IMG/VR virus record: IMGVR_UViG_3300050020_000374
Coordinates: 1 to 23,468 of that record
Source: a virus
Reading direction: 5' to 3' (one strand)
Length of the DNA: 23,468 bases
This document shows, in pieces, positions 9,344 through 22,167 of the stretch. The notes under the pieces were generated by a model. It saw nothing but the letters and a program-made list of their open reading frames with translations. It was not told where the DNA came from and searched no databases. The translations under genes were made by a program, and so were the position numbers. The stretch's first letter is position 1. Every line of letters starts with the position of its first letter.

Positions 9344-9919
9344 ATGGCGAAAACCAAACCGAACAAGTCTGTAGGGATCCGCGACCAGCAGTATGAGCTG
9401 GTGTCCATCGCGGCGATCCAGCCACACCCACGGAACCCGCGGCAGGGCGACGTGAACGCGATCATTGCATCGATTAAGTCCAATCAATTCTTCGGCGCTT
9501 GCGTAGTGCAACGTTCCACGGGGAACATTCTGGCGGGCAACCACCGCTGGCTCGCCGCCCGGGAGTGCGGACTGCCGGTCGTCCCGGTCATTTATGTCGA
9601 TTGCGACGATGCAGAGGCCCTCCGGATCTTGCTCGTCGACAATCGCACGAACGATCTGGCCGGCTATGACGACGCCGCGCTGGCCCAGCTCCTGCAGGAA
9701 GTTCAGGCGGAGGCCGGAACGCTCCTCGGCACGGGGTTCGACATCGAGTCTCTCGACGATCTGCTGCGGGGACTTCAAAGCGACAGCGCCAGCGAGGGCG
9801 CAACGGCAGACGATGCGGTTCCGGAACCGAAGGAGAACCCGGTCACGCGGCCTGGCGATCTGTGGCTCCTTGGCTCGCGAGTCATCTGTCCGCACTGCGG
9901 CACGGAGAATGATGTTTGA
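9344..9919 (+). CDS. ParB-like nuclease-fold protein upstream of methyltransferases
   Basis: 191 residues. The ParB/sulfiredoxin-type domain spans about residues 18-110: AAIQPHPRNPRQGDVNAIIA, then F-F-G-A-C-V-V, the signature A-G-N-H-R-W-L-A-A and V-P-V-I-Y-V-D. In many phages and mobile elements this domain is fused to, or adjacent to, a DNA methyltransferase and supplies DNA binding. Here the end reads VTRPGDLWLLGSRVICPHCG and then stops. In fused homologues P-G-D-L-W-L-L-G leads directly into H-R-L-L-C-G-D of the methylase, so this looks like a fusion split in two. ATG 9344 is chosen over 9299 because family-like sequence starts there. It overlaps the methyltransferase by 11 bases. Confidence 0.85.
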   Translation: MAKTKPNKSVGIRDQQYELVSIAAIQPHPRNPRQGDVNAIIASIKSNQFFGACVVQRSTGNILAGNHRWLAARECGLPVVPVIYVDCDDAEALRILLVDNRTNDLAGYDDAALAQLLQEVQAEAGTLLGTGFDIESLDDLLRGLQSDSASEGATADDAVPEPKENPVTRPGDLWLLGSRVICPHCGTENDV

Positions 9920-10901
9920 CTGTACCTGCAGGAAGTGTCACCGCTCGCTCGAGGCGATCGTGCCTCCGCGCCACCGGTTGCTATGCGGCGACTGCCGCGA
10001 TCCAAAGCAGGTCGATCGACTCTTCGACGGGACGCGCGCAAACGTCGTGATCACCTCGCAGCCTTATGCATCGCAGCGCGAATACGATGCATCGAGCGGC
10101 TTCAAGCCCGTCCCGGTGGACGAATACATCGAGTGGTACGGCGCGGTGGCCGAGATCATCGCCTCGCACCTGGCGCCGGACGGCTCCTATTTCCTCAATA
10201 TCAAAGCCCACGCCAAGGATGGCGAACGCAGCCTCTATGTGATGGACCTGGTAATCGCACACAAGCGGCGGTGGGGCTGGCGCTTCGTTGACGATCTATT
10301 GTGGCGCAAACCCGACAATGGCGTCCCCGGCGGCTGGCCCAACCGGTTCAAGAACGCGCACGAGCCGGTCTTTCACTTCTGCCGGCAGGCGGAGATCAAG
10401 TTTCGGCCGAAAGCGGTGGGCCACGTCTCGGAGGACTGCTTCAACTACTCGCCGGACAATCCGAAGTCGACGTCGGGTAGCGGGCTGCTGGGCACAGGAG
10501 CGCGCGGCTCTGCTGCAGGAAAGCAGGACGCCGGCGACAGCGACCGCCGTTTCGTGGACATTGCGCGGCCATCGAACGTGATCGAATGCAAGAGCGAGTC
10601 AACGCAGGGATCGCACTCCGCGCAGTTCCCGCGGATGCTGGTCGAGTTCTTCTTGAATGCATACTCAGACGCCGGCGACACCGTTTACGACCCGTTCATG
10701 GGCAGCGGCACTACCATGGCAGCCGCGCACCTGCTGGGCCGCGCCGGGTTCGGCTGCGAGATCTCGCCGGCATACTGCGACGTAATTCTCGAACGCCTAT
10801 CTCGTCTGGGCGCCTGCTCCATCACACTGGCGGCAACCGGCCAGACGTTCGACCAGGTCGCAGAGGAAAGATTCCAGGCTCCGGTCGAGGCCATAGCATG
10901 A
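9909..10901 (+). CDS. DNA methyltransferase, beta class, with motif IV changed to SQPY
   Basis: 330 residues. It would transfer a methyl group from S-adenosylmethionine to an amino group of A or C in DNA. An N-terminal Cys cluster (C5, C7, C10, C26, C29) is probably a zinc site. Motif IV at residues 50-53 is S-Q-P-Y within VITSQPYASQREYD; the family has S-P-P-Y. The region after it is typical (DGSYFLNIKAHAKDG, WGWRFVDDLLWRK, PGGWPNRFKNAHEPVFHF). Motif I, D-P-F-M-G-S-G-T-T (261-269), follows motif IV, which is the beta-class order, and is intact. The Pro-to-Gln change is at codon 10059-10061 and may reduce or abolish catalysis. ATG 9909 or 9912 can start; GGAGA precedes both. The stop overlaps the next gene by ATGA. 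Confidence 0.88.
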   Translation: MMFDCTCRKCHRSLEAIVPPRHRLLCGDCRDPKQVDRLFDGTRANVVITSQPYASQREYDASSGFKPVPVDEYIEWYGAVAEIIASHLAPDGSYFLNIKAHAKDGERSLYVMDLVIAHKRRWGWRFVDDLLWRKPDNGVPGGWPNRFKNAHEPVFHFCRQAEIKFRPKAVGHVSEDCFNYSPDNPKSTSGSGLLGTGARGSAAGKQDAGDSDRRFVDIARPSNVIECKSESTQGSHSAQFPRMLVEFFLNAYSDAGDTVYDPFMGSGTTMAAAHLLGRAGFGCEISPAYCDVILERLSRLGACSITLAATGQTFDQVAEERFQAPVEAIA

Positions 10902-11746
10902 AGTGCAAATGCTGGAAGTGCGGGCTGGACTTCAACGTGAAGCCGAGCCCTCGCCACGCGCTGTTGTGCGGCGATGCGACCGACACTGCACAGGCGTCGC
11001 GAGCGATGTGCGGGGAAAAAGCGCATCTGGCGTTCATTGATCCGCCCCACAACGTTGATTATGAAGGATATACGGACGACAGGTTAAAGATCCAAGGCGA
11101 CAAAAAGACCCCCGAGCAGTTCCGGATCTTCCTGTTGGCTGCGTTTCGATCCTGCGCCACGGCGGTGCGCACGGATGGATCGATGTATGTGTGCCACTCC
11201 TCGTCGTGGCAACGTGAGTTCCAGGACGCGCTCGAGGCTGCCGGTTTCGAGATCCGTTGCCAGATCATTTGGGCGAAGAACACTTTCGCCTGGGGGTTTG
11301 GAAGGTATAAGTTCCAGCACGAGCCCATGTTCTATGTTCACGTCGCCGGCCAATCGGACGCCTGGTACGGAGACAAGAGTGAGTCGACGCTCTGGCAAAT
11401 ACCCAAGCCGGCGGCCAGCCGGTTGCACCGAACCATGAAACCGATTGCGCTGGTAATTCGGGCGATCGAAAACTCGAGCCGGAACGGTGACATAGTCGGG
11501 GATCTCTTTGCAGGCTCCGGCTCGACGCTAATCGCCTGTGAAAAGACCGGGCGCCGGGCGAGGCTCATGGAACTGGATCCGATCTACTGCGACGTGATCG
11601 TGCGCCGCTGGCAAAACTTCACCGGGCGCGAGGCAACGCTCGAGGGGGACGGCCCCACGTTTGCACATGTTGAATTTGGCCGCATGCAGGAACGCGAAGA
11701 CCACGACAAGGACGACGCACTGCGGCTTTTAGAGGAGCGCGCATAG
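10898..11746 (+). CDS. DNA methyltransferase, beta class, with motif IV changed to DPPH
   Basis: 282 residues, second methyltransferase in tandem. The N-terminus has C-K-C-W-K-C-G (C3, C5, C8) and then R-H-A-L-L-C-G-D, closely parallel to the first enzyme. Motif IV at 48-51 is D-P-P-H, in AFIDPPHNVDYEGY; the family has D-P-P-Y, whose aromatic residue stacks on the target base. The rest is typical of N6-adenine-type ParB-linked methylases (HSSSWQREFQDALEAAGFE, IIWAKN, Y-K-F-Q-H-E-P-M-F-Y, RLHRTMKPIALVIRAIENSS). Motif I, D-L-F-A-G-S-G-S-T, is intact at 202-210. ATG 10898 overlaps the previous stop; the open frame upstream to 10586 is a shadow of the first gene. Confidence 0.88.
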   Translation: MKCKCWKCGLDFNVKPSPRHALLCGDATDTAQASRAMCGEKAHLAFIDPPHNVDYEGYTDDRLKIQGDKKTPEQFRIFLLAAFRSCATAVRTDGSMYVCHSSSWQREFQDALEAAGFEIRCQIIWAKNTFAWGFGRYKFQHEPMFYVHVAGQSDAWYGDKSESTLWQIPKPAASRLHRTMKPIALVIRAIENSSRNGDIVGDLFAGSGSTLIACEKTGRRARLMELDPIYCDVIVRRWQNFTGREATLEGDGPTFAHVEFGRMQEREDHDKDDALRLLEERA

Positions 11747-11749
11747 CAT

Positions 11750-12394
11750 GTGGCAACCCCATCAAACGATCTTATAACCGTCGCTCGGCTTGCAGCAGAG
11801 TGGGGGTGCACGCGCCAGAACGCGAATACGAGCGTTAGGGTTTTGGGCATCGGGCGAAGCGCGGATGGCCTGGTCAGCCGGTCGGAAGCGAATCGGAAGC
11901 GGGCGCAACTCGGCAGCCCGCGTCAGACGCAGAACTCCGCGAAACGGTGGGGCAAGCAGGAGCCCCAGGCGCAGGGAAAGGCTCACAGCGGGAACGGGAA
12001 TGGCAGCGGCAATGGCAACGGCAATCGGTTCGGCCCAGGAAACGGGCGAGGTGAACCAGACCGGCCGGACGGCAAGACCAAGGCCGAGGCCGAGCGGACG
12101 GCGGCCTGGCTTCGCGTGGCCAAGGATCAGATCAGCCTGCAGCGCGAGATGGGAGCCGTCGTCAAGGTGGAAGAGGCCGTCGCCACCTTTCAAACGATCG
12201 GACGCATCCTTGCAGCAGATCGTGAAAACGGGCCCACGCAACTGGCGCCGCTGCTGGTCGGCAAGACGGACGTTGCCGAAATAGAAGCAATTCTGAGGCG
12301 CGAGAAGAGAGTAACAGACGAGCGCATCGCCGCGGAGATTGCACTGAAGTTAGGGTCGCTTGGAAATGTCAACGGTAACGGAAATCGTAAGTGA
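11750..12394 (+). CDS. Terminase small subunit-like protein (Nu1-type HTH)
   Basis: 214 residues. The N-terminal HTH, ITVARLAAEWGCTRQNANTS, is like the DNA-binding domain of lambda Nu1, which recognises the packaging site. A Gly-Asn-rich linker (about residues 80-105, GNGNGSGNGNGNR) is followed by a helical C-terminal part (AEAERTAAWLRVAKDQISLQ, REMGAVVKVEEAV) of the kind used for oligomerisation and binding the large subunit. GTG 11750 is chosen: ATG 11748 in the other frame stops after nine codons. The 3' end overlaps the large subunit gene by 29 bases, the expected TerS-TerL order. Confidence 0.78.
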   Translation: MATPSNDLITVARLAAEWGCTRQNANTSVRVLGIGRSADGLVSRSEANRKRAQLGSPRQTQNSAKRWGKQEPQAQGKAHSGNGNGSGNGNGNRFGPGNGRGEPDRPDGKTKAEAERTAAWLRVAKDQISLQREMGAVVKVEEAVATFQTIGRILAADRENGPTQLAPLLVGKTDVAEIEAILRREKRVTDERIAAEIALKLGSLGNVNGNGNRK

Positions 12395-14306
12395 CGCGTT
12401 TGTAGCCGGCTTCCGGCCCGAACCCGAGATGACCGTCTCGGAATGGGCCGACCGCTACCGGTACGTCTCGAAACCCAGCCCTGAGCCAGGCTTCTGGCGG
12501 ACGTCGCGCGTGCCCTATATGAAGGAAGTGATGGACCGGCTGTCACCCTCCGACCCGGCACAGATCATCGTGCTCGCCAAGGCTGCGCAGGGCGCCGGGA
12601 CGGAGGGCGGCATTAACGCGATCGGCTGCTGGATGCATCGCTACCCCGATTCGATCCAATATGTGCTGGGCTCGATCCAGAGTGCCCGGCGATTCGTCAG
12701 CCGCCGACTGGACCCGATGATCCAGGCAAACGAAGTTCTCCGGAACATCGTCTCGGCCAAGCGATCCCGGGGGAGTTCGAACACCACGACGCTCAAGGAG
12801 TTTGGCGACTCGCAGCTGGTAATCAGCACCGCGGCGTCCACATCCGACGCCAGGGCGGATTCCTACCGCTACCAGGTGCAGGACGAGGTCGATTCGTTCC
12901 GTGTGGACCTGAACAAGGAGGGCTCGTCGGTCGAACTGTTCATGCAGCGGACCGCTGGCTATCGCAACCGCAAGGTGTATCTGGTTTCGACGCCCACGCT
13001 TTATCATCTCTCTCAGATCTGGGAGTGGTTTCAGCGGGGTGATCAGAACTATTTCCACCTGCCCTGCCCGCGTTGCGGAGCGTTTCAAGCGCTGATCTTC
13101 GGGGAGGACCGCGCGCGTGTCGGCGACCTCGGAGGCCTGCGCTGGGATAAGGGCGACCCGGCCTCGGTCCGCTACCAGTGCGAAAAATGCGGCGGCACAT
13201 TCGAGGAGTGGGAAAAGGTCGCGCTGCTCCAGAACGGCGTGTGGATTCCTTCGGCGCCCGGCAACGGCGCCGCGCAGAAGATCCGCACCTATCAGATCAA
13301 CGCGCTGTATTACCCTTACGGCTGGCCAGGCAACTCCTGGCTGAATCTGGCGGCCGAGTGGGAGAAGGTCCACAAGGACCCCGTCAAACGCAAGACCTTC
13401 GTCAACCTCAAGCAGGGCCTGCCATACTCCGACCCCGCAGAGACGCGCGCCGACGCAGACACGCTAATCGCGCGGCGCGAGGCCTATGGGCCAGAGCTGC
13501 CGCCCTTGGTCGCCGTGCTGACCGCTGGCGCCGACGTCCACGCCGAACGCATCGACGCCGTACTGGTGGGCTGGGGCGCCGACGAAGAGTCCTGGCGCCT
13601 CGAGCGGCGGTCGTTCCTCGGCGACACCTCGGAGATGGTATCCAAGGATCCCAAGCGCTTCTCGCCTTGGGAGCAGCTCGAGACCTGGCTGCATGCAGAG
13701 CGGTGTTCGGAACTGGGCCTGCAGCTGAGCGTCAAGGCGGTCTGCATCGACTCAGGCTACAAAACCCAGACAGTGGTGCAGTTCTGCGGCGAGCGCAAAG
13801 GCAAGCGTGTCTGGGCGACCAAAGGCCGCGAAGGTAACCGCCCCATCTGGGCGGTTCAGAACCGCAGGGCGCGCGGAAAATTCCCGCCGCCCAATATCAT
13901 CGGCGTCGACGTCGCCAAGGAGCGCATTTACGCGCGCCTCCGCATGAGCGAACCCGGCCCGGGCGCCATCCACTTCCCGCTTGCGCCGGAGTTCGACCGG
14001 GATTACTTCGAACAGCTCACCGCGGAAGTGCGAGTGCCCGACTACACCGGCCCAACGCCCAAATATGCATGGAAGAAGCGCTCGCCAGGCGCCGCCAATC
14101 ACATGCTCGACTGCGATGTCCAGGCCTATGCCGCTTTGATCGGCTGGCAAATCTCTTCCGCCAGCTCCCTGAACCGGGAAGTCGCGCGAGTCCGGACTCT
14201 CGCGGCGTCTGTCTCTCCCGCGGGCCGGCAGAACCAAGCCGCCCGCGATCCGGCGGCCTATGCCGCGGCGTTCAAACCGATCGTCTCAGACAATCCCTAC
14301 CTCTAA
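12366..14306 (+). CDS. Terminase large subunit, GpA family
   Basis: 646 residues, full length for the family. It cuts concatemeric phage DNA and drives it into the prohead by ATP hydrolysis. The N-terminus T-V-S-E-W-A-D-R-Y-R is typical. The Walker A-like loop is KAAQGAGTE (72-80), where GpA proteins usually have K-G-A-Q-x-G-x-T-E; Walker B is D-E-V-D-S-F (173-178) and YLVSTPT is the coupling segment. A zinc ribbon is seen (C-P-R-C-G then C-E-K-C-G). The nuclease half shows TAGADVHAERIDAVLVGWG, then E-E-S-W and KAVCIDSGYKT, ending with Y-A-W-K-K-R-S-P-G-A-A-N-H-M-L-D. ATG 12366 is preferred over TTG 12360. The stop overlaps the gpW-like start (TAATG). Confidence 0.93.
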   Translation: MSTVTEIVSDAFVAGFRPEPEMTVSEWADRYRYVSKPSPEPGFWRTSRVPYMKEVMDRLSPSDPAQIIVLAKAAQGAGTEGGINAIGCWMHRYPDSIQYVLGSIQSARRFVSRRLDPMIQANEVLRNIVSAKRSRGSSNTTTLKEFGDSQLVISTAASTSDARADSYRYQVQDEVDSFRVDLNKEGSSVELFMQRTAGYRNRKVYLVSTPTLYHLSQIWEWFQRGDQNYFHLPCPRCGAFQALIFGEDRARVGDLGGLRWDKGDPASVRYQCEKCGGTFEEWEKVALLQNGVWIPSAPGNGAAQKIRTYQINALYYPYGWPGNSWLNLAAEWEKVHKDPVKRKTFVNLKQGLPYSDPAETRADADTLIARREAYGPELPPLVAVLTAGADVHAERIDAVLVGWGADEESWRLERRSFLGDTSEMVSKDPKRFSPWEQLETWLHAERCSELGLQLSVKAVCIDSGYKTQTVVQFCGERKGKRVWATKGREGNRPIWAVQNRRARGKFPPPNIIGVDVAKERIYARLRMSEPGPGAIHFPLAPEFDRDYFEQLTAEVRVPDYTGPTPKYAWKKRSPGAANHMLDCDVQAYAALIGWQISSASSLNREVARVRTLAASVSPAGRQNQAARDPAAYAAAFKPIVSDNPYL

Positions 14307-14981: not shown

Positions 14982-16607
14982 ATGCGGCGATTCATTTGTT
15001 TTGCAGTCTTGCTGTGCGCGCTGGCGGCAGCGGCAATCGCGCAACCGGCAGTGCCGGGCCCGCGGCCGCCCTGCAGTGCCACGACGACGAAGTTGTGCAC
15101 GCCGCAGGCCGACGCGACGGGCGCAGTGCAATTCCCAGGGCCCGTTTCGGTGGGGAATGGGGTGCCTACTGTACTAGGCGATGGTATATCGGCACTTACA
15201 TGCCCTGGGAAGTTTGCCAGTCTTACCGCTTGCTTGAACGCTGGTAATTCGTTTGTTACAGCAGGAAAAGCGCTGCGTATTGAGATCCCGCAAGGTACCT
15301 ATACTCTCACTAGTTACCCATACTCACTTGCATCAGGGATGCAAATATATGGCGTCTTGCCTACTTTTGTTTCCGCTGGTGGGGGAGATACAGATGACTT
15401 CGAAACACCTGCCGGAGGCACTTGGATTGACTGTGGCGGGTCACAGTGTTTTGCTGGTACTGGATTGACTGGAGTGGTTTTGGAGAATCTCGGGTTTTTG
15501 CACTTCGGCACTGTTGGCGTATCATTTGGAGCACACAATGTTGCTGGGCTGTCTGCGTCCCGATTGCAAAATCTTTATTTCGTCGGGTCTGCCACACTCA
15601 ACGGATCCGGGACCGCTCTAGAAATCTATAACTTTCAAAACGTCAATGCGGATGTGATTCATGCCTTTAGTGTGAATACTGGACTACATCTCGTTGGGGA
15701 CAACTCAGCCTTTCTGCTTCCCGGAAACTCAACTTTTGTCTCGGTGTATATAAATACTTATGCGAAGTCAGTAGCTAATGGAAATAACACTACGTGCGGA
15801 CTTAAAGCCGAAGCCCTGCAAGGAGATATTCTCTACACAACATTCGTCCGCCCACAGGTGGTTACTGGTCCGGGTGGTGACTCCACTGGAAGTTTAATGT
15901 GTCTTTCTGGGCTAGATTTTGCGGGTGTTCATGACGCTGACCTTGAGGGGAATGTCTTGAACGCCTTGAAACTTGTCAACACGACTCAGTCGCTTCTGGG
16001 AATCATGGCAACCTCAGGGACGGTTACTAACACTGTCAACTTTGACGTTAACTCTGTCAGGAATGTAGTCTTATCGGCCAATGCAAATCTGAGTGTTACC
16101 GACGCCAATGGAGCCAGCAGTTCAAATATTGTGCTTGGGGGCTATCTGGACGCCACTTATGGTCAACAGACTTTTGGTAAGGGTGCATTCTCCGCAGTGG
16201 GAAGCCTATCAATAACAGGACCAATAGCAGCGACGGGGAACCTTTCAACTCAGGGCGTGGTGGGACTCAGCGGAACTGATACAGGCCACCAAATATTCAG
16301 CAGTGGAAATACAACAACCCTGAAGGAGTACACAGGCAGTTGGCATTTGCTAGACACGTACAGCGGAGACGTTTTTAATGGAGCAGCGGGTGTGGCCACT
16401 GCAAGAGCTGTTTTGAATGGTAATGGCTGGAGTTTGTTCTCAGTTGCATATGGATCTTTGCCCTCAGGCGCTCCTGCTTTTACCCAGATAGGCTGTACGG
16501 ACTGCAAAAATGTGATTGACGACGCTGCCATACCTGGGGCAAATTGCGTTGCTGGTGGAAGTGGGACTATAGCCCGGAGGGAGCATAATACTTGGCGTTG
16601 CAACTAG
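14982..16607 (+). CDS. Exported beta-helix (pectate lyase-like/tailspike-like) protein
   Basis: 541 residues. Signal peptide at 1-20 (RRFICFAVLLCALAAAAIAQ). Residues 60-130 have the pectate-lyase-type entry to a beta helix: an aspartate-glycine (V-L-G-D-G), a Cys pair, then IEIPQGTYTLTSYPYSL and GMQIYGVLP. Long stretches rich in Gly, Asn, Ser, Thr and Val follow, as expected of helix rungs. The C-terminus GSGTIARREHNTWRC is compact with a Cys. Such folds bind or cut polysaccharide; no catalytic residues could be assigned. Base composition switches near codon 60: the signal peptide and linker are GC-rich, the rest is AT-richer. This suggests a new body was joined to a local export leader. AGGAG lies ten bases before ATG 14982. 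Confidence 0.7.
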   Translation: MRRFICFAVLLCALAAAAIAQPAVPGPRPPCSATTTKLCTPQADATGAVQFPGPVSVGNGVPTVLGDGISALTCPGKFASLTACLNAGNSFVTAGKALRIEIPQGTYTLTSYPYSLASGMQIYGVLPTFVSAGGGDTDDFETPAGGTWIDCGGSQCFAGTGLTGVVLENLGFLHFGTVGVSFGAHNVAGLSASRLQNLYFVGSATLNGSGTALEIYNFQNVNADVIHAFSVNTGLHLVGDNSAFLLPGNSTFVSVYINTYAKSVANGNNTTCGLKAEALQGDILYTTFVRPQVVTGPGGDSTGSLMCLSGLDFAGVHDADLEGNVLNALKLVNTTQSLLGIMATSGTVTNTVNFDVNSVRNVVLSANANLSVTDANGASSSNIVLGGYLDATYGQQTFGKGAFSAVGSLSITGPIAATGNLSTQGVVGLSGTDTGHQIFSSGNTTTLKEYTGSWHLLDTYSGDVFNGAAGVATARAVLNGNGWSLFSVAYGSLPSGAPAFTQIGCTDCKNVIDDAAIPGANCVAGGSGTIARREHNTWRCN

Positions 16608-16632
16608 GCAACCTTTTTGTGTAAATCCAATA

Positions 16633-16712
16633 CCTACCCTACTCTAAACCAACCATCCAAAAATAAACCTTGCAGGCCCCTTGTATCCCAGGGGGTTTGG
16701 GTATAGGGTAGG
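16633..16712 (+). repeat. Imperfect inverted repeat at the module border, terminator-like
   Basis: CCTACCCTACTCTAAACC (16633-16650) pairs imperfectly with GGTTTGGGTATAGGGTAGG (16694-16712). Between them is a smaller stem, CCCCT/AGGGG (16677-16681, 16690-16694), followed by GTTTGG. It lies just after the beta-helix gene and before the hypothetical protein gene at 16728. It may be a terminator or the remains of a recombination junction. Confidence 0.5.
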
Positions 16713-16727
16713 GATGGAATCAAATCA

Positions 16728-17321
16728 ATGTCAGTCGAACACCCGTTCCCTGGTATGCCCCAGACCGTTACGCCAACCGTAACCAAACCGACAACCTCCA
16801 CCCCCTCAAAACCCCTTGCCCGTACAGCGATTGTGCAAGGCTTCCCTTCCCTACCCACACACCCCCCCTCCAGCGATTCGTGTACGGCCCTCGTACAATC
16901 GACGTACAGCGATTCCCCGCGAAAATGGATAGTAGTAGACCATGACGGCGCGGAGACGTGGTTCTCAGGGCACGATGGGGCATGGGGATGGTTCATGGCA
17001 TCCCCTTTCGCGGCACGTCTCTACCTGCTCACCGGAGGGGAACGTTCCTTGATTGGTGGGTTGCCCTATTCCCTCAAACCTTGGCATTCCAACTCCCTGC
17101 CCCGTCCATTTGTTCCTCGATTTGGGGATAGGGTAGCTTGCTACACCCCTAATGGTGAAAGATTGGGGATGTGCGAGTTTGACAGTAAAGGGTGGAGATT
17201 CTACCCCAATGTAGGGGTTATTGTTGGTCGCCGTCCTGGGGTAAAATTCCACCCTACCTATCGGGCTTGTATCCCAGCTTGGGCAACCCCGTTGATTACG
17301 AAATGGATACTTTGTGAGTAA
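16728..17321 (+). CDS. Hypothetical protein with Pro/Thr/Ser-rich N-terminus
   Basis: 197 residues. The first 65 are low-complexity (TVTPTVTKPTTSTPSKPLA) and probably disordered. The rest is a compact, Trp- and Gly-rich part (WIVVDHDGAETWFSGHDGAW, then GWFMASPFAARLYLLTGGE, FGDRVACYTPNGERLGMCEF). No family recognised. GGAATCAAATCA precedes ATG 16728, related to the leader seen before other genes in this half. It ends with a TAA that overlaps the GTG start of a tiny membrane protein. Confidence 0.65.
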   Translation: MSVEHPFPGMPQTVTPTVTKPTTSTPSKPLARTAIVQGFPSLPTHPPSSDSCTALVQSTYSDSPRKWIVVDHDGAETWFSGHDGAWGWFMASPFAARLYLLTGGERSLIGGLPYSLKPWHSNSLPRPFVPRFGDRVACYTPNGERLGMCEFDSKGWRFYPNVGVIVGRRPGVKFHPTYRACIPAWATPLITKWILCE

Positions 17322-17412
17322 ACTACCTTGGTGGGTTAAAGATTGGTTTCTCCCTGCCTTAACCATATTGGTAACGGTATGGGTATTCACTTGGATTGTT
17401 TTAGGAGACTAG
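17314..17412 (+). CDS. Tiny single-pass membrane protein (32 residues)
   Basis: GTG 17314 overlaps the previous stop and starts MSKLPWWVKDW, then one hydrophobic segment FLPALTILVTVWVFTWIVL ending G-D. The charge pattern (Lys before, Asp after) suggests the N-terminus stays inside. It is too short for usual gene finders, but overlap with the upstream gene and a ribosome-binding site for the next gene within its end support a real operon member. Its role is unknown; single-pass phage peptides include holins, antiholins and spanin parts. Confidence 0.5.
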   Translation: MSKLPWWVKDWFLPALTILVTVWVFTWIVLGD

Positions 17413-17415
17413 TTT

Positions 17416-17652
17416 ATGACTCTTCCCTTAACTCACGGTGCTCCAATCGGTAGGATATTTGTTTTCAGGGCTGTATTAGAAGGAGCAGTGACTCATCAAA
17501 AAGAAGTGATGGAGATTCCCGTTGCAGCGTTTGATTTTGAGCAGGCTATGTCCAATTTACAAAGGGCATACCCCCAGCTTGAACCGTGGCTTGACGAAAT
17601 GCGTATCCAGAAAGCGATAGGAGAAATTCATGAGCCTCCGTGTATTGGCTGA
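17416..17652 (+). CDS. Small hypothetical protein
   Basis: 78 residues: GAPIGRIFVFRAVLEGA, then KEVMEIPVAAFDFEQAMSNL and Y-P-Q-L-E-P-W-L. The order strand-strand-helix with 'I-F-V-F-R-A-V-L-E-G' and 'A-x-D-F-E-Q-A' resembles small alpha/beta proteins that process a feature per residue position, but no family can be named. AGGAG lies eight bases before ATG 17416. Its end overlaps the following membrane protein gene by 23 bases. Confidence 0.65.
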   Translation: MTLPLTHGAPIGRIFVFRAVLEGAVTHQKEVMEIPVAAFDFEQAMSNLQRAYPQLEPWLDEMRIQKAIGEIHEPPCIG

Positions 17653-17797
17653 CCAATTCCTGGCTTTACCTTGGATAGCCCAATTTATGATTGTGGTTGG
17701 TGGTTTTGTGATTGGGGCTATTTTGCTGGGGGTGGTGGTAGACCGTCTCAATGCCTGGGACGAGAGACGACGATGGGCGCGGCGATGGAGGCCGTAA
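17630..17797 (+). CDS. Tiny membrane protein with Arg/Trp-rich tail (55 residues)
   Basis: ATG 17630 has an excellent ribosome-binding site (AGGAGAAATTC) and overlaps the preceding gene. The product has a hydrophobic region of about 25 residues (WIAQFMIVVGGFVIGAILLG then V-V-V) and a basic C-terminal tail (DERRRWARRWRP), which should face the cytoplasm. No family recognised. Together with the 32-residue protein at 17314 it may form a membrane-acting pair, for example in lysis; this is speculative. Confidence 0.6.
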   Translation: MSLRVLADQFLALPWIAQFMIVVGGFVIGAILLGVVVDRLNAWDERRRWARRWRP

Positions 17798-17905
17798 CGT
17801 AGAGGGGTGCCCTTGGACGTAGGATCGGTGTGGGCACGCCGGCGTGATTGGGGGGTACCCTGGGGGGTGCCCTGGGGCGTAACGCGACCAAACCCCCACG
17901 TGACG
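17798..17905. promoter_or_regulatory. Palindrome- and repeat-rich GC island before the ten-gene array
   Basis: Non-coding and clearly more GC-rich than its surroundings. It contains the 12-base perfect palindrome CACGCCGGCGTG (17835-17846), the palindrome GGGTACCC (17853-17860), CACGTG (17898-17903), and an 18-base near-repeat GGGGTGCCCTTGGACGTA (17804-17821) against GGGGTGCCCTGGGGCGTA (17864-17881), with two mismatches. A shorter related copy is at 17852-17863. Dense, spaced inverted repeats of about 110 bases are what an operator, a replication origin or a resolvase site would look like. Confidence 0.5.
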
Positions 17906-17913
17906 TTATGTTC

Positions 17914-17919
17914 TATAAT
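17914..17919 (+). promoter_or_regulatory. Candidate -10 box TATAAT for the ten-gene array
   Basis: A perfect TATAAT lies 31 bases before ATG 17951, giving a leader of about 25 bases. No good -35 hexamer sits 16-18 bases upstream (the region reads CCCCC), so it may need an activator bound to the palindromes just upstream. Confidence 0.45.
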
Positions 17920-17950
17920 GATGAGGCTCAGCAAATAACGAGGTTTTTGA

Positions 17951-18172
17951 ATGGATAGGGAATCAAGAAAGGAATCAAAATTGCCTAGAGGCACTAAACC
18001 AAATAATTCTTGTACCAGACCTTTTCATGCAAATAGAAAGGTTTGGGTGCTAAAAAGTCTGCCTACTTATTGTGGTAAATGTGGTCATCGAATTACCATA
18101 CTATCACCATACAGATTTAAGGCTATTTGTGTTGATTGTTGGGAAAAGGAATCAAAATGCCAATTCAACTAA
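17951..18172 (+). CDS. Small zinc-ribbon protein
   Basis: 73 residues, basic N-terminus (DRESRKESKLPRGTK). A zinc ribbon is formed by C-G-K-C-G near residue 41 and C-V-D-C near residue 60, with HRITILSPYRFKAI between. GAGG lies seven bases before ATG 17951. It is the first gene after the TATAAT box and overlaps the next gene by 16 bases. It is probably an accessory nucleic-acid-binding phage protein; no family name can be given. Confidence 0.7.
   Translation: MDRESRKESKLPRGTKPNNSCTRPFHANRKVWVLKSLPTYCGKCGHRITILSPYRFKAICVDCWEKESKCQFN
18148..18156 (+). promoter_or_regulatory. Translation leader GGAATCAAA directly before ATG 18157
   Basis: AAAAGGAATCAAA precedes ATG with no gap. The same nine bases directly precede ATG 21467. 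The AAAGGA part is a Shine-Dalgarno sequence with ideal spacing and fixes the start at 18157 rather than at the upstream TTG 18136. Confidence 0.7.
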
Positions 18173-18408
18173 AAAAGGATGAATACGTTATCGTACCCAT
18201 CCTCCCTAAGTGTGATTTTTGCCACGCTATGGGACGCGAAGTGAATGCAAAAGTGGATGGTAAAACAACCCTCGGAGTATGGGCGAATATGTGTGCTCGC
18301 CACTACGTTACCAAGGGAATAGCCTTAGGGTTAGGTAAAGGGCAGCGATTGATATTGAAAGGGAGCAAGGAAGCAAATGGTATCACCAATCAAAATTCAT
18401 GTGGATAG
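18157..18408 (+). CDS. Phage zinc-finger-like small protein (CDFC...MCARHY type)
   Basis: 83 residues. Ligand pattern C-D-F-C near residue 19, then G-K-T-T-L-G-V-W-A-N, M-C-A-R-H-Y, and the ending G-L-G-K-G-Q-R-L-I-L-K. Small proteins with C-D-F-C, 'W-A-Y-M-C-x-x-H' and 'L-G-x-G-K-G-Q-x-L' occur repeatedly in phage genomes as conserved hypotheticals; a zinc-binding fold is likely. The start is set by the GGAATCAAA leader. It overlaps both neighbours (16 and 32 bases). Function unknown. Confidence 0.75.
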   Translation: MPIQLKKDEYVIVPILPKCDFCHAMGREVNAKVDGKTTLGVWANMCARHYVTKGIALGLGKGQRLILKGSKEANGITNQNSCG

Positions 18409-18655
18409 TTTGCTCTCTGGGTTTACTACTCAATCACTTTCTGATGCTAGAAAGATACTCCAGTATCTACGTACCCAAGTAGGTATGCACGTTACTACCA
18501 GCTTGGATGAAATGAGGGGTAATGCTGTTGCTTGGCATACTCTTTTCTCCGCAGATGTCTATCTGTGGAATCAAGAGCAACAGAGTAAACGTCTAACCTC
18601 CAAGAAAAATCGCTGGGGTTATCATAATGCCACCAGGGCGAAAACCAGCTTGTAA
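18377..18655 (+). CDS. Small hypothetical protein
   Basis: 92 residues: SPIKIHVDSLLSGFTTQSLS, a helix (DARKILQYLRTQVG), then a helix containing RGNAVAWHTLFSADVYLW and a basic tail. No domain recognised. AAGGA precedes ATG 18377 by about five bases. It lies within the array in which each gene overlaps the next (32 bases upstream, 29 downstream), which supports real translation. Confidence 0.6.
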   Translation: MVSPIKIHVDSLLSGFTTQSLSDARKILQYLRTQVGMHVTTSLDEMRGNAVAWHTLFSADVYLWNQEQQSKRLTSKKNRWGYHNATRAKTSL

Positions 18656-18884
18656 TTGTGGGGAGTGCAGAGTATGCAAGCAGCGATACTATCGCTGGGT
18701 GTACGCCCATAAACATAACACTGCACTCCCCAAGCCCTATGTAAAAAACATGAATGAACGGGGCTGCTATCATACAGTGACAATCAAAGATATGGTAGCA
18801 AATGGCGAATTACTACCTATTGGGGAGTCTTGTAAAGTGTTAGATAGAGAGTTTCCATGGTTGAGGGAGGTAACATTAAAATAA
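18627..18884 (+). CDS. Small protein with Cys cluster CNCGECRVC
   Basis: 85 residues. The N-terminus P-P-G-R-K-P-A-C-N-C-G-E-C-R-V-C-K-Q-R carries four Cys in ten residues, a compact metal site seen in small phage and WhiB-unrelated proteins where residues after it are basic (RYYRWVYAHKHN). The C-terminal part VTIKDMVANGELLPIGESC is likely alpha/beta. It may bind DNA through the basic stretch following the Cys cluster. It shares TAATG with the next gene. Confidence 0.68.
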   Translation: MPPGRKPACNCGECRVCKQRYYRWVYAHKHNTALPKPYVKNMNERGCYHTVTIKDMVANGELLPIGESCKVLDREFPWLREVTLK

Positions 18885-19069
18885 TGTTCCGAAAATGGAA
18901 TGGCGATAACAAACCACCTAAGGGTGTAGGCCCAAGGCCAAAGGGAGATCCAAGGGATAAGATCAATGCCCACAATCGCTCCCTCGCCCGTAGGGAGATA
19001 CGTGAGGAATTACGTAAACTAGAGATGGAGAATAATTATGAGTCGTTTACTCTACCCACGAATAGCTAA
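18884..19069 (+). CDS. Small basic hypothetical protein
   Basis: 61 residues, rich in Lys, Arg and Pro (FRKWNGDNKPPKGVGPRPKG) with a C-terminal helix (LARREIREELRKLEMENN). ATG 18884 overlaps the previous stop as TAATG; an in-frame ATG at 18857 is possible and is preceded by no better site. Overlaps the next gene by 32 bases. No function can be given. Confidence 0.55.
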   Translation: MFRKWNGDNKPPKGVGPRPKGDPRDKINAHNRSLARREIREELRKLEMENNYESFTLPTNS

Positions 19070-19283
19070 GTACTGTAAGGATGCCAAGCTATCTAGGGGG
19101 TTAGATCCTATTGTGCTTATGGGTAAGATTCGTCAGGGGAGACTTAGATCGTTTGCACTAATTGGAGACTCCCTATCTATCCAAATAGCTGCATCCCGAT
19201 TCTTAGACAGGGTTACACTCCATTTGCTGGTAGGGCAACCCTCTGATGCCACCGAGTCACTTTATAGGGAGATAGATAGATGA
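19038..19283 (+). CDS. Small hypothetical protein, possible DNA-binding
   Basis: 81 residues: LLYPRIAKYCKDAKLSRGLD, then MGKIRQGRLRSFALIGDSLS and SRFLDRVTLHLLVGQPSDA. The mid part 'P-I-V-L-M-G-K-I-R-Q-G-R-L-R-S-F-A-L-I-G-D' resembles the short recognition arm of excisionase-like proteins (a helix then 'G-x-L-x-x-x-x-I-G'), so a small DNA-binding protein is possible but not certain. GGAG lies eight bases before ATG 19038. ATGA overlap with the next gene. Confidence 0.58.
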   Translation: MSRLLYPRIAKYCKDAKLSRGLDPIVLMGKIRQGRLRSFALIGDSLSIQIAASRFLDRVTLHLLVGQPSDATESLYREIDR

Positions 19284-19444
19284 CCCTATTTATTATTGAG
19301 ATTTGGACTGGTAACCACTGGGAGCCTATCCCGGAAACTGTCACTAGTACAGAAGCAATCGCCTACCGTAGAATGGAGTATAGGAAATCAACCCACCCTC
19401 ATATTAGGTATAGGGTGGCAAGGTATGTTAGGGTAAGGGTATGA
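19280..19444 (+). CDS. Small hypothetical protein (54 residues)
   Basis: ATG 19280 and stop 19442-19444 share ATGA overlaps with both neighbours and GGGAG precedes the start, so this short frame is very likely translated. It reads TLFIIEIWTGNHWEPIPETV, then a helix (STEAIAYRRMEYRK) and a basic end (R-Y-R-V-A-R-Y-V-R-V-R-V). The shape beta strand, 'W-E-P-I-P', helix, strand is like small phage proteins that append to a DNA-binding complex; no family recognised. Confidence 0.62.
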   Translation: MTLFIIEIWTGNHWEPIPETVTSTEAIAYRRMEYRKSTHPHIRYRVARYVRVRV

Positions 19445-19659
19445 ACATCCATCTTAATTTCGGCATAGGGGATACAGTTAGGGTACCTTGGGGATCAGAG
19501 GGAGCTTTTGTGGTAGAGGAAATAAGGGTATTAGTGGAAAGATCAATAGGTAAACTAGCCCAATGTGTGCCCTACTCTGTATCAATTGAGTATCACCAAG
19601 TAGACCCCCCAACCGATTGGGTCCACCAAAAAGAACTAATTAGGATAAAAAGGGGATGA
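19441..19659 (+). CDS. Small hypothetical protein, probable SH3-like barrel
   Basis: 72 residues, almost all beta: NFGIGDTVRVPWGSEGAFVV, then E-E-I-R-V-L-V-E, VPYSVSIEYHQVD and W-V-H-Q-K-E-L-I-R-I. 'G-D-x-V-x-V' with a following Gly-rich turn and 'V-V-x-E-I' is the common beginning of SH3-like or KOW-like barrels. Linked by ATGA overlaps to the 54-residue gene upstream and the recombinase downstream. Its role is unknown; it could be a recombinase accessory. Confidence 0.62.
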   Translation: MNIHLNFGIGDTVRVPWGSEGAFVVEEIRVLVERSIGKLAQCVPYSVSIEYHQVDPPTDWVHQKELIRIKRG

Positions 19660-20333
19660 AAGCCGCAATTTACTCCCGAGTCTCCACCCTCGATAAGGGT
19701 CAATCCACTGAGGTACAAACAGCATCCCTATCTAGCTACTGCTTTCGTATGAAATGGGAATATGAGGTATTCGAGGATTACATTTCAGCCAAAAACCTCA
19801 AACGTCCCAATCTTGAGATATTGCTAAACAAACTTCGTAAACACGAATTTGATATACTTCTAGTATCAAAGGTAGATAGGCTATCCCGTAGTGTGCTAGA
19901 CTTTTGTAACCTTTCTGCCCAACTTGTAGCTTGGCACATACGGTTGATAGTGTTGGATCAAGGGTTGGATACCGATGATTCAAACCCTATGGCGAAAATG
20001 CTGATTCAACTATTGATTGTGTTTGCTGAATTTGAGCGGGAGATGATACGCGACCGTACCAAACGAGGTATGGAAAACGCCCGTCGCAAAGGCAAACAAA
20101 TAGGGGGGAAACGTAACGCTGCACTAACAGAGATATTTGATCTAGTCCAAACCTATCACAAACATGGTAGAACCACCCGTGAAATAGCTAAGTTATTAGC
20201 TAAAAATTACAAGCTAAAGGTGTCCCATATGACAATCCATAGACGATTGGTGGAATCTGGGGACATCATAGCTGGGGAACCAAAACTAAATGGAGGTAAA
20301 ATTCATGGCAAAGTCTATGAAACTTCGATTTGA
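19656..20333 (+). CDS. Small serine recombinase (resolvase/invertase family)
   Basis: 225 residues. Cuts and rejoins DNA at specific sites through a covalent serine intermediate. The catalytic domain (about 1-140) begins AAIYSRVST with Ser10 as nucleophile, and keeps D-R-L-S-R-S, a long helix E with M-A-K-M-L-I-Q-L-L-I-V-F-A-E-F-E-R-E-M-I and R-D-R-T-K-R-G-M-E-N-A-R-R-K-G. The C-terminal HTH is at about 165-205 (GRTTREIAKLLAKNY, V-S-H-M-T-I-H-R-R-L). Its size fits the resolvase/invertase group, not the large phage integrases. ATG 19656 overlaps the preceding gene by ATGA, and the 3' end overlaps the following HTH gene by 29 bases. Likely uses: dimer resolution, inversion of a segment, or integration. 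The palindromes at 17798-17905 are a possible site. Confidence 0.93.
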   Translation: MKAAIYSRVSTLDKGQSTEVQTASLSSYCFRMKWEYEVFEDYISAKNLKRPNLEILLNKLRKHEFDILLVSKVDRLSRSVLDFCNLSAQLVAWHIRLIVLDQGLDTDDSNPMAKMLIQLLIVFAEFEREMIRDRTKRGMENARRKGKQIGGKRNAALTEIFDLVQTYHKHGRTTREIAKLLAKNYKLKVSHMTIHRRLVESGDIIAGEPKLNGGKIHGKVYETSI

Positions 20334-20766
20334 GGCAGTAAATCTAGCTCCTATCCAAATCCATCTAATGAGACAATTAGGGTGGGAGGTGGAGACGAAA
20401 ACCGTAGATTGGACTACCACCAATATTTATAGTGAAGTAAGACTACCCAAAAAGGATAATATTCTAGCAGATTATTTAATCATGCTGTTTGGAGGAGCTT
20501 GGGAAGTGCTAGAAATCCCCCCTACCCTGAGCCTAGTAAAACCAAATGGCCGTCCCGCCACCCTATCCACAAAATCTCAACTTGTGGCCCTACGTGCCTT
20601 ACGCGATTGCAAAACGGTTGCCCTAGCTGCTAGACGGGTGGGGGTGTCTCGCACCTCTCTATGGGCCATTGCGAAGGGTAAGAGAGGTATTCTAGCATCC
20701 CCTCAAGAAATCGTGGATGAGAAATTGGAGTACATGATCCCAAGCCGAAAAAATCCTCACTCCTAA
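20305..20766 (+). CDS. HTH protein coupled to the recombinase
   Basis: 153 residues. The N-terminal 80 residues are of unknown fold (LRFEAVNLAPIQIHLMRQLG, LADYLIMLFGGAWEVLEIPP). The C-terminal part carries a clear HTH: VALRALRDCKTVALAARRVG then VSRTSLWAIAKGKRG, like Fis-type or homeodomain-like three-helix modules. GGAGGT precedes ATG 20305, which lies inside the recombinase C-terminus. It is likely a DNA-binding regulator or a recombination directionality partner, given the overlap; this is inferred. A GTG/ATG at 20290 in the same frame is less likely. Confidence 0.75.
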   Translation: MAKSMKLRFEAVNLAPIQIHLMRQLGWEVETKTVDWTTTNIYSEVRLPKKDNILADYLIMLFGGAWEVLEIPPTLSLVKPNGRPATLSTKSQLVALRALRDCKTVALAARRVGVSRTSLWAIAKGKRGILASPQEIVDEKLEYMIPSRKNPHS

Positions 20767-20855
20767 TCCAAATTGGGTGTAAGCTAGTGGGTAGATAGGG
20801 AATCAATCCCAATCGAGACCGAGTATCGAGACTGAATCAAAAAGAGGTACCAGTT
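20767..20855 (+). promoter_or_regulatory. Intergenic segment with ATCGAGAC direct repeats
   Basis: After ten overlapping genes this is the first gap. ATCGAGAC occurs at 20812-20819 and again at 20825-20832, thirteen bases apart. GGGAATCAATCCC nearby is a short inverted repeat. AGAGG lies eight bases before ATG 20856. A regulatory site, perhaps for the HTH protein upstream, is plausible; no promoter consensus is clear. Confidence 0.35.
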
Positions 20856-21368
20856 ATGGCCGAATTCATTAGTCGCACATCGCTCCCCGCTCCCACAAGG
20901 GGCAAAGCCGCCGCAACCGTTCCCGCGCTCTCCATTTCAGAGATGGGTGGGACTAGGATGAACAAATGCCTTACTCAGAAATGTGAGGATGCCATAGGGC
21001 TTCACCTTGGATGGGATGAAACCAAACGGGTGATGACCTTCACGGCAGTCCAAGTCCTGCCCAAGAACGTTACAAAAGAGGACCTGTTTGAAATCAACCT
21101 TGCTAAAGACAACGGGCAAGCCTCTATCCCTGGGATGGCTTCGTTCTACCGGCTCAAGGGGTATGACTTCAAGGCGTCTAGTCAACAGACCATGCCCCTT
21201 ACTCTCAATGAGACTGCCAAGGCAGGGTTTCAATTCTCGTTTGTGCTCCCCTCTGGGGCACTAACCCCTAACCCTAAGGCTCCCCGCAAGCCTCGTACTG
21301 TTAAGGGCACCCCTCCGGTATCTGGTAAGGCTCCTATCGCGGATAGCGCGGTTGCTGACCTTATCTAG
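20856..21368 (+). CDS. Hypothetical protein, probable phage accessory or structural
   Basis: 170 residues. The N-terminal 35 are Ala/Thr/Pro-rich (RTSLPAPTRGKAAATVPALS). The core (about 38-130) is beta-rich: GLHLGWDETKRVMTFTAVQV, then KEDLFEINLAKDNGQASIPG and AKAGFQFSFVLPSGAL. The tail is Pro/Lys-rich (PNPKAPRKPRTVKGTPPVSG). Codons are more GC-rich than in the array before it. No family recognised. AGAGG precedes ATG 20856, and a hairpin follows the stop. Confidence 0.68.
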   Translation: MAEFISRTSLPAPTRGKAAATVPALSISEMGGTRMNKCLTQKCEDAIGLHLGWDETKRVMTFTAVQVLPKNVTKEDLFEINLAKDNGQASIPGMASFYRLKGYDFKASSQQTMPLTLNETAKAGFQFSFVLPSGALTPNPKAPRKPRTVKGTPPVSGKAPIADSAVADLI

Positions 21369-21404
21369 TTTTGCTCTAGCACCCCCGCCAGAGCCACTAG
21401 AGAT

Positions 21405-21434
21405 GCCTCCCTTCCCTACCTGGGGTGGGGAGGC
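21405..21434 (+). terminator. Terminator-like hairpin after 20856-21368
   Basis: GCCTCCC (21405-21411) pairs with GGGAGGC (21428-21434); further C/G pairs are possible inside. It is followed by GTTCTCTTATTT, a moderate T-run. A second inverted repeat, CTCTAG/CTAGAG, lies just before it (21375-21380, 21397-21402). Confidence 0.6.
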
Positions 21435-21457
21435 GTTCTCTTATTTAGAGATAGAAA

Positions 21458-21466
21458 GGAATCAAA
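21458..21466 (+). promoter_or_regulatory. Translation leader GGAATCAAA directly before ATG 21467
   Basis: GAAAGGAATCAAA precedes ATG, the same leader as before 18157. GGAATCAAA also recurs inside this gene at 21473-21481. The related string AAAGGACAAAAA precedes ATC at 21872 in the next gene. Confidence 0.7.
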
Positions 21467-21814
21467 ATGTTTGGAATCAAATCTCTCAATACTGAATTGG
21501 CAGAAACATTGTCTGAAGTTGCCAAACTTACTAACGAAAACTTAACACAAATAGCTGTGCTAAATAAATGCCTCTCTAGCCTTGAAGTAGGTTTATCTTC
21601 GGCACAAGCTAGAATGAGTGCACTTACTGACCTGCAAACTGCGGTAGTCAATTTAGTTACCGCTTCTGCTAACGAGATCACTGCTGTAACTACGGCTCTT
21701 ACAGTACTAGGTGATGATGCTAGCTATGCTGACGTTGAAGCTGCTGTGACTTCGATTAACTCAGCCGTCGCAACCATGCAGGCTGAGACTGCTGCTATCA
21801 CGCCCAAAGTCTAA
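21467..21814 (+). CDS. Coiled-coil hypothetical protein
   Basis: 115 residues, nearly all helical with heptad-like spacing: LNTELAETLSEVAKLTNENL, then LNKCLSSLEVGLSSAQARMS, LQTAVVNLVTASANEITAVT and VEAAVTSINSAVATMQAETA. It is poor in charge and rich in Ala, Thr, Val and Leu. Small coiled-coil proteins of this type occur among phage structural and head or tail accessory proteins; no family can be named. Start fixed by the GGAATCAAA leader. The next gene encodes a similar helical protein, perhaps its partner. Confidence 0.7.
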   Translation: MFGIKSLNTELAETLSEVAKLTNENLTQIAVLNKCLSSLEVGLSSAQARMSALTDLQTAVVNLVTASANEITAVTTALTVLGDDASYADVEAAVTSINSAVATMQAETAAITPKV

Positions 21815-21871
21815 TTTACTTAACAATGGTAGTTAGACTTACAGTAAAAAACAAACAGCAAAGGACAAAAA

Positions 21872-22105
21872 ATCATACCCCCTATCAATGCTCTGCAATC
21901 TGCACTAGCTAACCTGAAAAGTGCTGTTGATAACACAAGTCCCAATGTTTCATCTGTTGCTGTACAAGCATCAGTCAATCACATTGAGGCTGCTATTGAT
22001 GCCTTGAAACAGCAAGTGGGTAACCTCGATCCAGTGGCCCAAAGGCTTCCTTCCGAGGGTGCAGGGGTTGGCCCAATTCCCCCTAGTGCTAATCGTACCT
22101 ATTAG
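21872..22105 (+). CDS. Helical protein without a standard start codon, partner of 21467-21814
   Basis: The frame is open from 21848 to TAG 22103-22105 and looks coding: INALQSALANLKSAVDNTSP, then V-Q-A-S-V-N-H-I-E-A-A-I-D-A-L-K-Q-Q-V-G-N-L and a Pro/Gly-rich end (LPSEGAGVGPIPPSANRTY). The helix pattern matches the gene before it. No ATG, GTG or TTG is present in the first half. AAAGGA with seven bases' spacing points to ATC at 21872 as the initiation codon (ATA 21875 is the other option), in the same place where ATG stands in the AAAGGAATCAAAATG leaders. Alternatively ATG 21826 in another frame could reach it by a +1 shift on the six-A run at 21867-21872. A strong terminator follows. Confidence 0.65.
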   Translation: MIPPINALQSALANLKSAVDNTSPNVSSVAVQASVNHIEAAIDALKQQVGNLDPVAQRLPSEGAGVGPIPPSANRTY

Positions 22106-22134
22106 CATCTCCCTCTCATCTAACCCAAACGTAG

Positions 22135-22162
22135 CCCCCCAGTGCCGATGCTGGGGGGTTTT
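22135..22162 (+). terminator. Strong rho-independent terminator between convergent genes
   Basis: Stem CCCCCCAG (22135-22142) and CTGGGGGG (22151-22158) with an eight-base loop, followed by TTTT. It ends the plus-strand genes just before the convergent minus-strand helicase gene, whose stop is at 22168-22170. Confidence 0.93.
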
Positions 22163-22167
22163 GGTGT

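Follow-up and report, generated by a model that had tools for sequence, protein, structure and literature searches.

A ParB-linked phage methyltransferase pair, probably ordinary, with altered catalytic motifs in both enzymes

The window analysed here, the whole 23,468-base metagenomic virus record IMGVR_UViG_3300050020_000374, carries a ParB gene followed by two neighbouring DNA methyltransferase genes (MT1 and MT2), and catalytic motif IV is altered in both enzymes. The explanation that we consider probable, if well short of certain, is that of an ordinary ParB and two-methyltransferase cassette with an allele-level change, in which MT2 is probably inactive and MT1 is weakened or possibly active. 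The altered pair most likely represents ordinary allele-level loss of function and not a new kind of protein. The ParB, MT1 and MT2 genes overlap head to tail, with a small terminase-like gene and then the large terminase gene downstream; MT1 and MT2 start with ATG at 9909 and 10898, with an ATGA overlap between them. The features of the locus are listed below.

9344-9919, + strand: stand-alone ParB-like protein, the usual N-terminal domain of the family as a separate gene (PF02195, E-value 9.5e-9; N-terminal part of phrog_498, E-value 7.5e-39)
9887-9898, + strand: CPHC knuckle of the ParB C-terminus, at the point from which the chain of fused relatives runs on into the methyltransferase (similar tails on stand-alone ParBs of related loci, by pattern search)
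9909-10901, + strand: MT1, beta-class amino-methyltransferase, PvuII-like, N4-cytosine type by resemblance (PF01555, E-value 1.8e-34; best PDB match, by sequence and by fold, M.PvuII)
9921-9938, + strand: N-terminal CTCRKC knuckle of MT1, shared among relatives by unfused ones only (from the sequence)
10056-10067, + strand: MT1 motif IV, SQPY in place of SPPY, with the Gln51 codon CAG at 10059-10061 (translation and family comparison)
10689-10709, + strand: MT1 motif I, DPFMGSG, intact (from the sequence)
10898-11746, + strand: MT2, beta-class amino-methyltransferase, CcrM-like, N6-adenine type by resemblance (PF01555, E-value 2.3e-22; phrog_498, E-value 1.1e-83; best PDB match, by sequence and by fold, CcrM)
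10904-10921, + strand: N-terminal CKCWKC knuckle of MT2, a small beta hairpin in the predicted model (sequence and model)
11039-11050, + strand: MT2 motif IV, DPPH in place of DPPY, with the His51 codon CAC at 11048-11050 (translation and family comparison)
11426-11443, + strand: MT2 HPTxKP motif, changed to HRTMKP (P178R, codon CGA at 11429-11431; Pro in 186/186 nonredundant relatives)
11501-11521, + strand: MT2 motif I, DLFAGSG, intact (from the sequence)
11750-12394, + strand: small terminase-like gene downstream of MT2 (phrog_57, E-value 7e-8)
12375-14306, + strand: large terminase subunit, 94% identical to that of the sibling phage L107 (phrog_15, E-value 7e-200)

The Pfam N6_N4_Mtase profile gave 120 bits for MT1 and 80 bits for MT2 against a cut-off of 26.7. 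Among the PHROGs, ParB resembles the N-terminal part and MT2 the C-terminal part of phrog_498, a phage family in which a ParB-like domain is linked to the methyltransferase and for which the window supplies this domain as an adjacent separate gene; phrog_67 was also matched by both MT1 and MT2. The AlphaFold models (mean pLDDT 81 for MT1 and 88 for MT2, with confident cores) show a Rossmann-like beta-class fold with motif IV preceding motif I, the beta-class order, and match PvuII, CcrM, RsrI and MboIIA. The best solved match of MT1 is M.PvuII (PDB 1boo; E-value 2.6e-13 by sequence and 6e-17 by fold), which has TSPPF where MT1 has TSQPY, while that of MT2 is CcrM (PDB 6pbd), which has DPPY and HPTQKP where MT2 has DPPH and HRTMKP. 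Judged solely by resemblance to PvuII and CcrM, MT1 would target N4-cytosine and MT2 N6-adenine, and the cassette is best read as an ordinary ParB-linked phage pair of one N4C-type and one N6A-type enzyme. A different target base, which a sequence-only reading of this DNA had offered as one possibility, found no support; MT1 is 77% identical over residues 21-321, target-recognition region included, to an SPPY relative (L002).

Translation bore out the replacements noted in that reading, with MT1 residues 49-53 reading TSQPY and MT2 residues 48-51 reading DPPH, as well as the intact motif I (D-x-F-x-G-S-G) of both enzymes. SQPY and DPPH both depart from the canonical motif IV of active m4C/m6A DNA methyltransferases (S/D/N-P-P-Y/F/W). 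Nor does MT1 have the (A/S/N)(L/I/V)P(Y/F) form of the KsgA/Erm-like rRNA adenine dimethylase family, since Gln is not L/I/V and the sole Pfam match is N6_N4_Mtase. The surroundings of the motifs had been described as well conserved; there is indeed no broad decay in either gene, but P178R in the otherwise invariant HPTxKP motif of the MT2 subfamily of active enzymes had been missed. Each of the three altered codons (MT1 Gln51, MT2 His51 and MT2 Arg178) lies one nucleotide from common family codons.

The frequency of these motifs among ParB-linked relatives, a check that had been proposed earlier, showed how rare they are. With some viral scans using patterns that contain P-Y or DPPY and are hence blind to certain variants, motif IV was SPPY in 163/163 MT1-type matches from viral contigs and bacterial genomes (some duplicate contigs included; SQPY in none), and nearly all of 287 MT2-type matches (again with some duplicate contigs) had DPPY, the first Pro being replaced by Leu, Ser or Ala in 9 (about 3%; DLPY, DSPY or DAPY) and the motif being DPPW in 1. 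A genome scan for MT2 that was independent of motif IV gave DPPY in 76/80 and first-Pro variants in 4/80. In nonredundant sets, Pro51 of MT1 was conserved in all 97 gap-free relatives, and the MT2 family had Asp48 and Pro50 in 186/186, Pro49 in 179/186 and Tyr51 in 185/186 (the exception being Trp). Outside the window, DPPH occurred in the MT2-type set only in L113/L114, which had been retrieved deliberately with a DPPH pattern; these two contigs are identical over 4,900 bases, and we rejected them as independent cases and counted them once. The gene in question (L113, 3549-4337) is an unrelated ParB-type methyltransferase with HPTMKP intact. A further DPPH, in L112, was judged fortuitous, and L115, the sole TSQPYAxQR match in the viral contigs, was likewise rejected as an SQPY case, both lying in frames full of stops. 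A search for SQPY methyltransferases in the literature collection covered found no report. Among the sequences compared, the motif IV changes of MT1 and MT2 are private to the window virus, save for the one unrelated DPPH virus.

Within the MT2 family, Leu, Ser or Ala stands in for the first Pro of DPPY on separate branches, in MT2-type genes of L007, L038, L039, L152, L279, L329, L345 and L347 (7/186 nonredundant). We looked for a clade of relatives with altered motif IV and found none; the altered members were mostly singletons on scattered branches, with nearest relatives mostly DPPY. This pattern fits repeated private events, which may have been tolerated or selected.

Published work bears on how far the changes would affect activity. 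Amino-methyltransferases hold the target amino group with the Asp/Asn and with the backbone carbonyl of the first Pro, and their Tyr is stacked on the base (described for N6-adenine enzymes; PMC3814359). Changing the S and Y of SPPY to Ala abolished N4C methylation (PMC8885841), APPA killed two N6A enzymes (PMC7736820), Y107G inactivated HP0593 (PMC3036652), and Tyr108 mutants (Ala/Gly) of M.TaqI had lowered activity, as cited in PMC3036652. Because MT2 has two breaks (Tyr51 to His and P178R) and published mutants of the motif lose or lower activity, loss or strong weakening is likely, and efficient methyl transfer by MT2 has most likely gone. MT1 may be weakened or possibly still active, because the first-Pro contact in the related N6-adenine mechanism is made by a main-chain carbonyl, which Gln would retain. 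The earlier claim of altered or lost activity in both enzymes is thus the best reading for MT2 and only plausible for MT1.

The first-Pro variants bear on a further reading, in which neither enzyme has lost activity, the changes from Pro to Gln and from Tyr to His being tolerated, and the phage DNA is methylated as in relatives; we consider this unlikely, though by no means far-fetched. First-Pro replacements recur in the MT2 family, bacterial genome contigs included, in proteins that are otherwise intact and whose Asp and second Pro never vary, which suggests that such changes are tolerated there and makes the case for loss weaker for MT1. The first Pro acts through its main chain, and the KsgA and Erm RNA adenine dimethylases function without it in motif IV (PMC3814359); they resemble MT1 in this respect, but belong to another family with another substrate and have a small hydrophobic residue where MT1 has Gln. 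The DPPH of L113/L114 stands beside an intact HPTMKP. The Tyr51 deviants (Trp once, and His once outside the window) are all ring-bearing, a tiny count that hints that the stacking role may be kept. Against this, MT1's own family is invariant at the first Pro, MT2 additionally carries P178R, and changes of the Tyr inactivate or weaken several enzymes (PMC3036652).

The sibling phage L107 (a 48 kb contig) is syntenic with the window from about 7.4 to 14.6 kb and has canonical motif IV in both genes (SPPY in MT1 and DPPY in MT2). MT1 is only 39% identical to its L107 counterpart over residues 125-234, with flanks at 83% and 73%, and MT2 is 32% identical over residues 36-195, with the C-terminus at 82%; the methyltransferase middles (10281-10610 and 11003-11482) thus differ from L107, and the ends are common to both. 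These divergent middles look like exchange of the target-recognition region, as would be expected if specificity were under diversifying pressure. In another relative (L042, 221-2165), MT1 is split over different frames with a motif I region that looks garbled, and MT2 is intact; the cassette resembles that of the window, and its MT1 seems to have decayed.

Both genes of the window keep intact open reading frames. Among sites conserved at 98% or more, 1/38 was broken in MT1 and 2/30 in MT2. Counting deviations at sites that at least 90% of near relatives conserve placed the window 10/61 for MT1 and 11/61 for MT2, so that broad decay is not apparent in the sequence of either gene. Relative to L107, dN/dS was 0.06-0.13 in the main shared methyltransferase segments, 0.40 in the short MT2 head, 0.06 in ParB and 0.07 in the terminase, pairwise values that average over long branches, in which a recent loss would not show and cannot be dated. 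Since the shared segments gave 0.06-0.13, MT1 and MT2 would have been constrained across most of the divergence from L107. The sequence-only reading had argued that two hits in adjacent genes imply selection. When the broken sites are treated as random among those at least 98% conserved, of which motif IV holds 4/38 in MT1 and 3/30 in MT2, the chance of a motif IV break in both genes is 0.105 x 0.19, or about 2%; computed post hoc, this figure is suggestive, not compelling, and the argument from adjacency is weak. Selection, for example by methyl-dependent restriction, or drift may equally have fixed the changes.

Under the preferred reading of allele-level loss, the course of events may be pictured as follows. 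By analogy with other phage orphan methyltransferases, a cassette beside the terminase genes would mark the phage's own DNA against restriction. In the window lineage, both enzymes have gained private single-nucleotide substitutions in the catalytic motif; the folds and motif I are retained, so the proteins would probably still bind DNA and cofactor. The marks might have become less necessary, or an Mrr-type methyl-dependent nuclease might have selected against methylation. Under Mrr restriction, nearly all plasmids with a methyltransferase transformed 10 to 10,000-fold less well, and all five sequenced survivors had mutations in the methyltransferase gene (PMC7736820). Restriction of this type would offer a concrete route to losing both enzymes with the rest of the cassette intact. 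If the losses are real, the phage offers a natural example of a cassette with point changes in its two modification enzymes and with its other parts intact; taken with the scattered altered motifs of relatives, it would allow a test of whether phage methyltransferases are repeatedly inactivated under pressure from methyl-dependent host nucleases.

The intact frames, motif I, predicted folds and ParB partner, and the clustering of the changes at catalytic or near-invariant positions, would also suit proteins selected as non-catalytic DNA binders, serving as ParB-docked regulators or, against restriction or methyl-dependent defence, as decoys or shields. We regard this as improbable: a lost enzyme accounts for the same facts, the altered state is common to no clade of relatives, so that no long-kept pseudoenzyme is visible, and nothing indicates DNA binding or host interference. 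The decoy role proposed in the earlier reading accordingly gained no positive evidence. METTL14-type inactive methyltransferase partners combine a degenerate catalytic motif with an intact fold and are paired with an active subunit, whereas in the window both neighbours are altered.

Since the window comes from a metagenome, one or both codons might be artefacts of the assembly, produced by consensus errors or by the mixing of strains. Across 15-18 kb the GC content drops from about 62% to 44%, and the synteny with L107 stops near 14.6 kb, so that the contig may be chimeric. We hold this origin of the codons to be decidedly unlikely, because all genes aligned with L107 are free of frameshifts and most have low dN/dS, which indicates a good consensus, the three altered codons are three different base changes, and all of them, like the methyltransferase region as a whole, lie well within the part supported by L107. 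On the same alignments, we rejected decay or poor consensus of the whole contig. Damage to a terminase motif was also rejected, the odd-looking KAAQGAGTE being nearly the same in L107. From about 15000 to 23468, the GC content is 43-47% and L107 synteny is absent; where it is lost, L107 has a portal-like gene (our own reading of its sequence). A search for viral relatives of the low-GC primase of the window found none. Beyond about 15-17 kb, the contig may thus be a chimera or a recent mosaic.

The N-terminal Cys-rich extensions, which the sequence-only reading had rightly pointed out on both enzymes, turned out to go with the unfused state. In most relatives, ParB and the methyltransferase are fused through a linker of the form G-D-x-W-x-L-G-x-H-R-L-L-C-G-D. 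Among 446 classified methyltransferase ORFs, 383 had this linker, none of them with a Cys knuckle before the domain; the knuckle was present in 21 linker-less ORFs, and some of the other 42 are fusions with a degenerate linker. The unfused methyltransferases begin with CxC or CxxC, and stand-alone ParBs that end in C-P-x-C exactly at the fusion point were found in L031, L057, L058, L068, L107, L119, L134 and the window (L201 repeats L057, and L203 repeats L068), in a tail search that demanded C-x2-C and would leave stand-alone ParBs with other tails unlisted. The Cys-headed relatives L031, L042, L057, L068 and L107 retain canonical motifs (SPPY or DPPY). By this comparison, the Cys-rich heads are a mark of unfused family members, not of altered enzymes. 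We hypothesize that one zinc site would be made up of two Cys supplied by ParB and two by each methyltransferase head, as a ribbon split between proteins. A search for ParB-zinc ribbon methyltransferases in the literature collection covered found no report. The split ParB with matching Cys knuckles suggests how a single DNA-binding protein might serve two modification enzymes, an idea open to testing. That the pair has become a non-catalytic ParB-docked DNA-binding module, with one ParB serving two pseudo-methyltransferases through an intermolecular zinc ribbon (CPHC tail and CxCxxC heads) in a role other than methylation, seems to us highly doubtful.

Related systems are known from other phages. 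Gp24 and Gp25 of the Acidithiobacillus phage AcaML1, to which MT1 and MT2 are about 30% and 47% identical, are likewise a tandem pair of one SPPY and one DPPY type with a four-base overlap and a small terminase-like neighbour; unlike the window pair, each is fused to its own ParB domain, lacks Cys knuckles and has canonical motif IV. The methyltransferases of Wolbachia prophage WO (met2 type; gp13 of phage WO) are homologues of MT2 at 43-45% identity, reported to have an N-terminal ParB-like domain (PMC3089641), which is fused there and separate here. WO met2 carries a disrupting stop codon or insertion in some strains (PMC3089641), whereas the window has catalytic point changes. The nearest bacterial homologue of MT2 (67%) comes from a Bryobacterales MAG from a fen, and this suggests a host among the Acidobacteriota.
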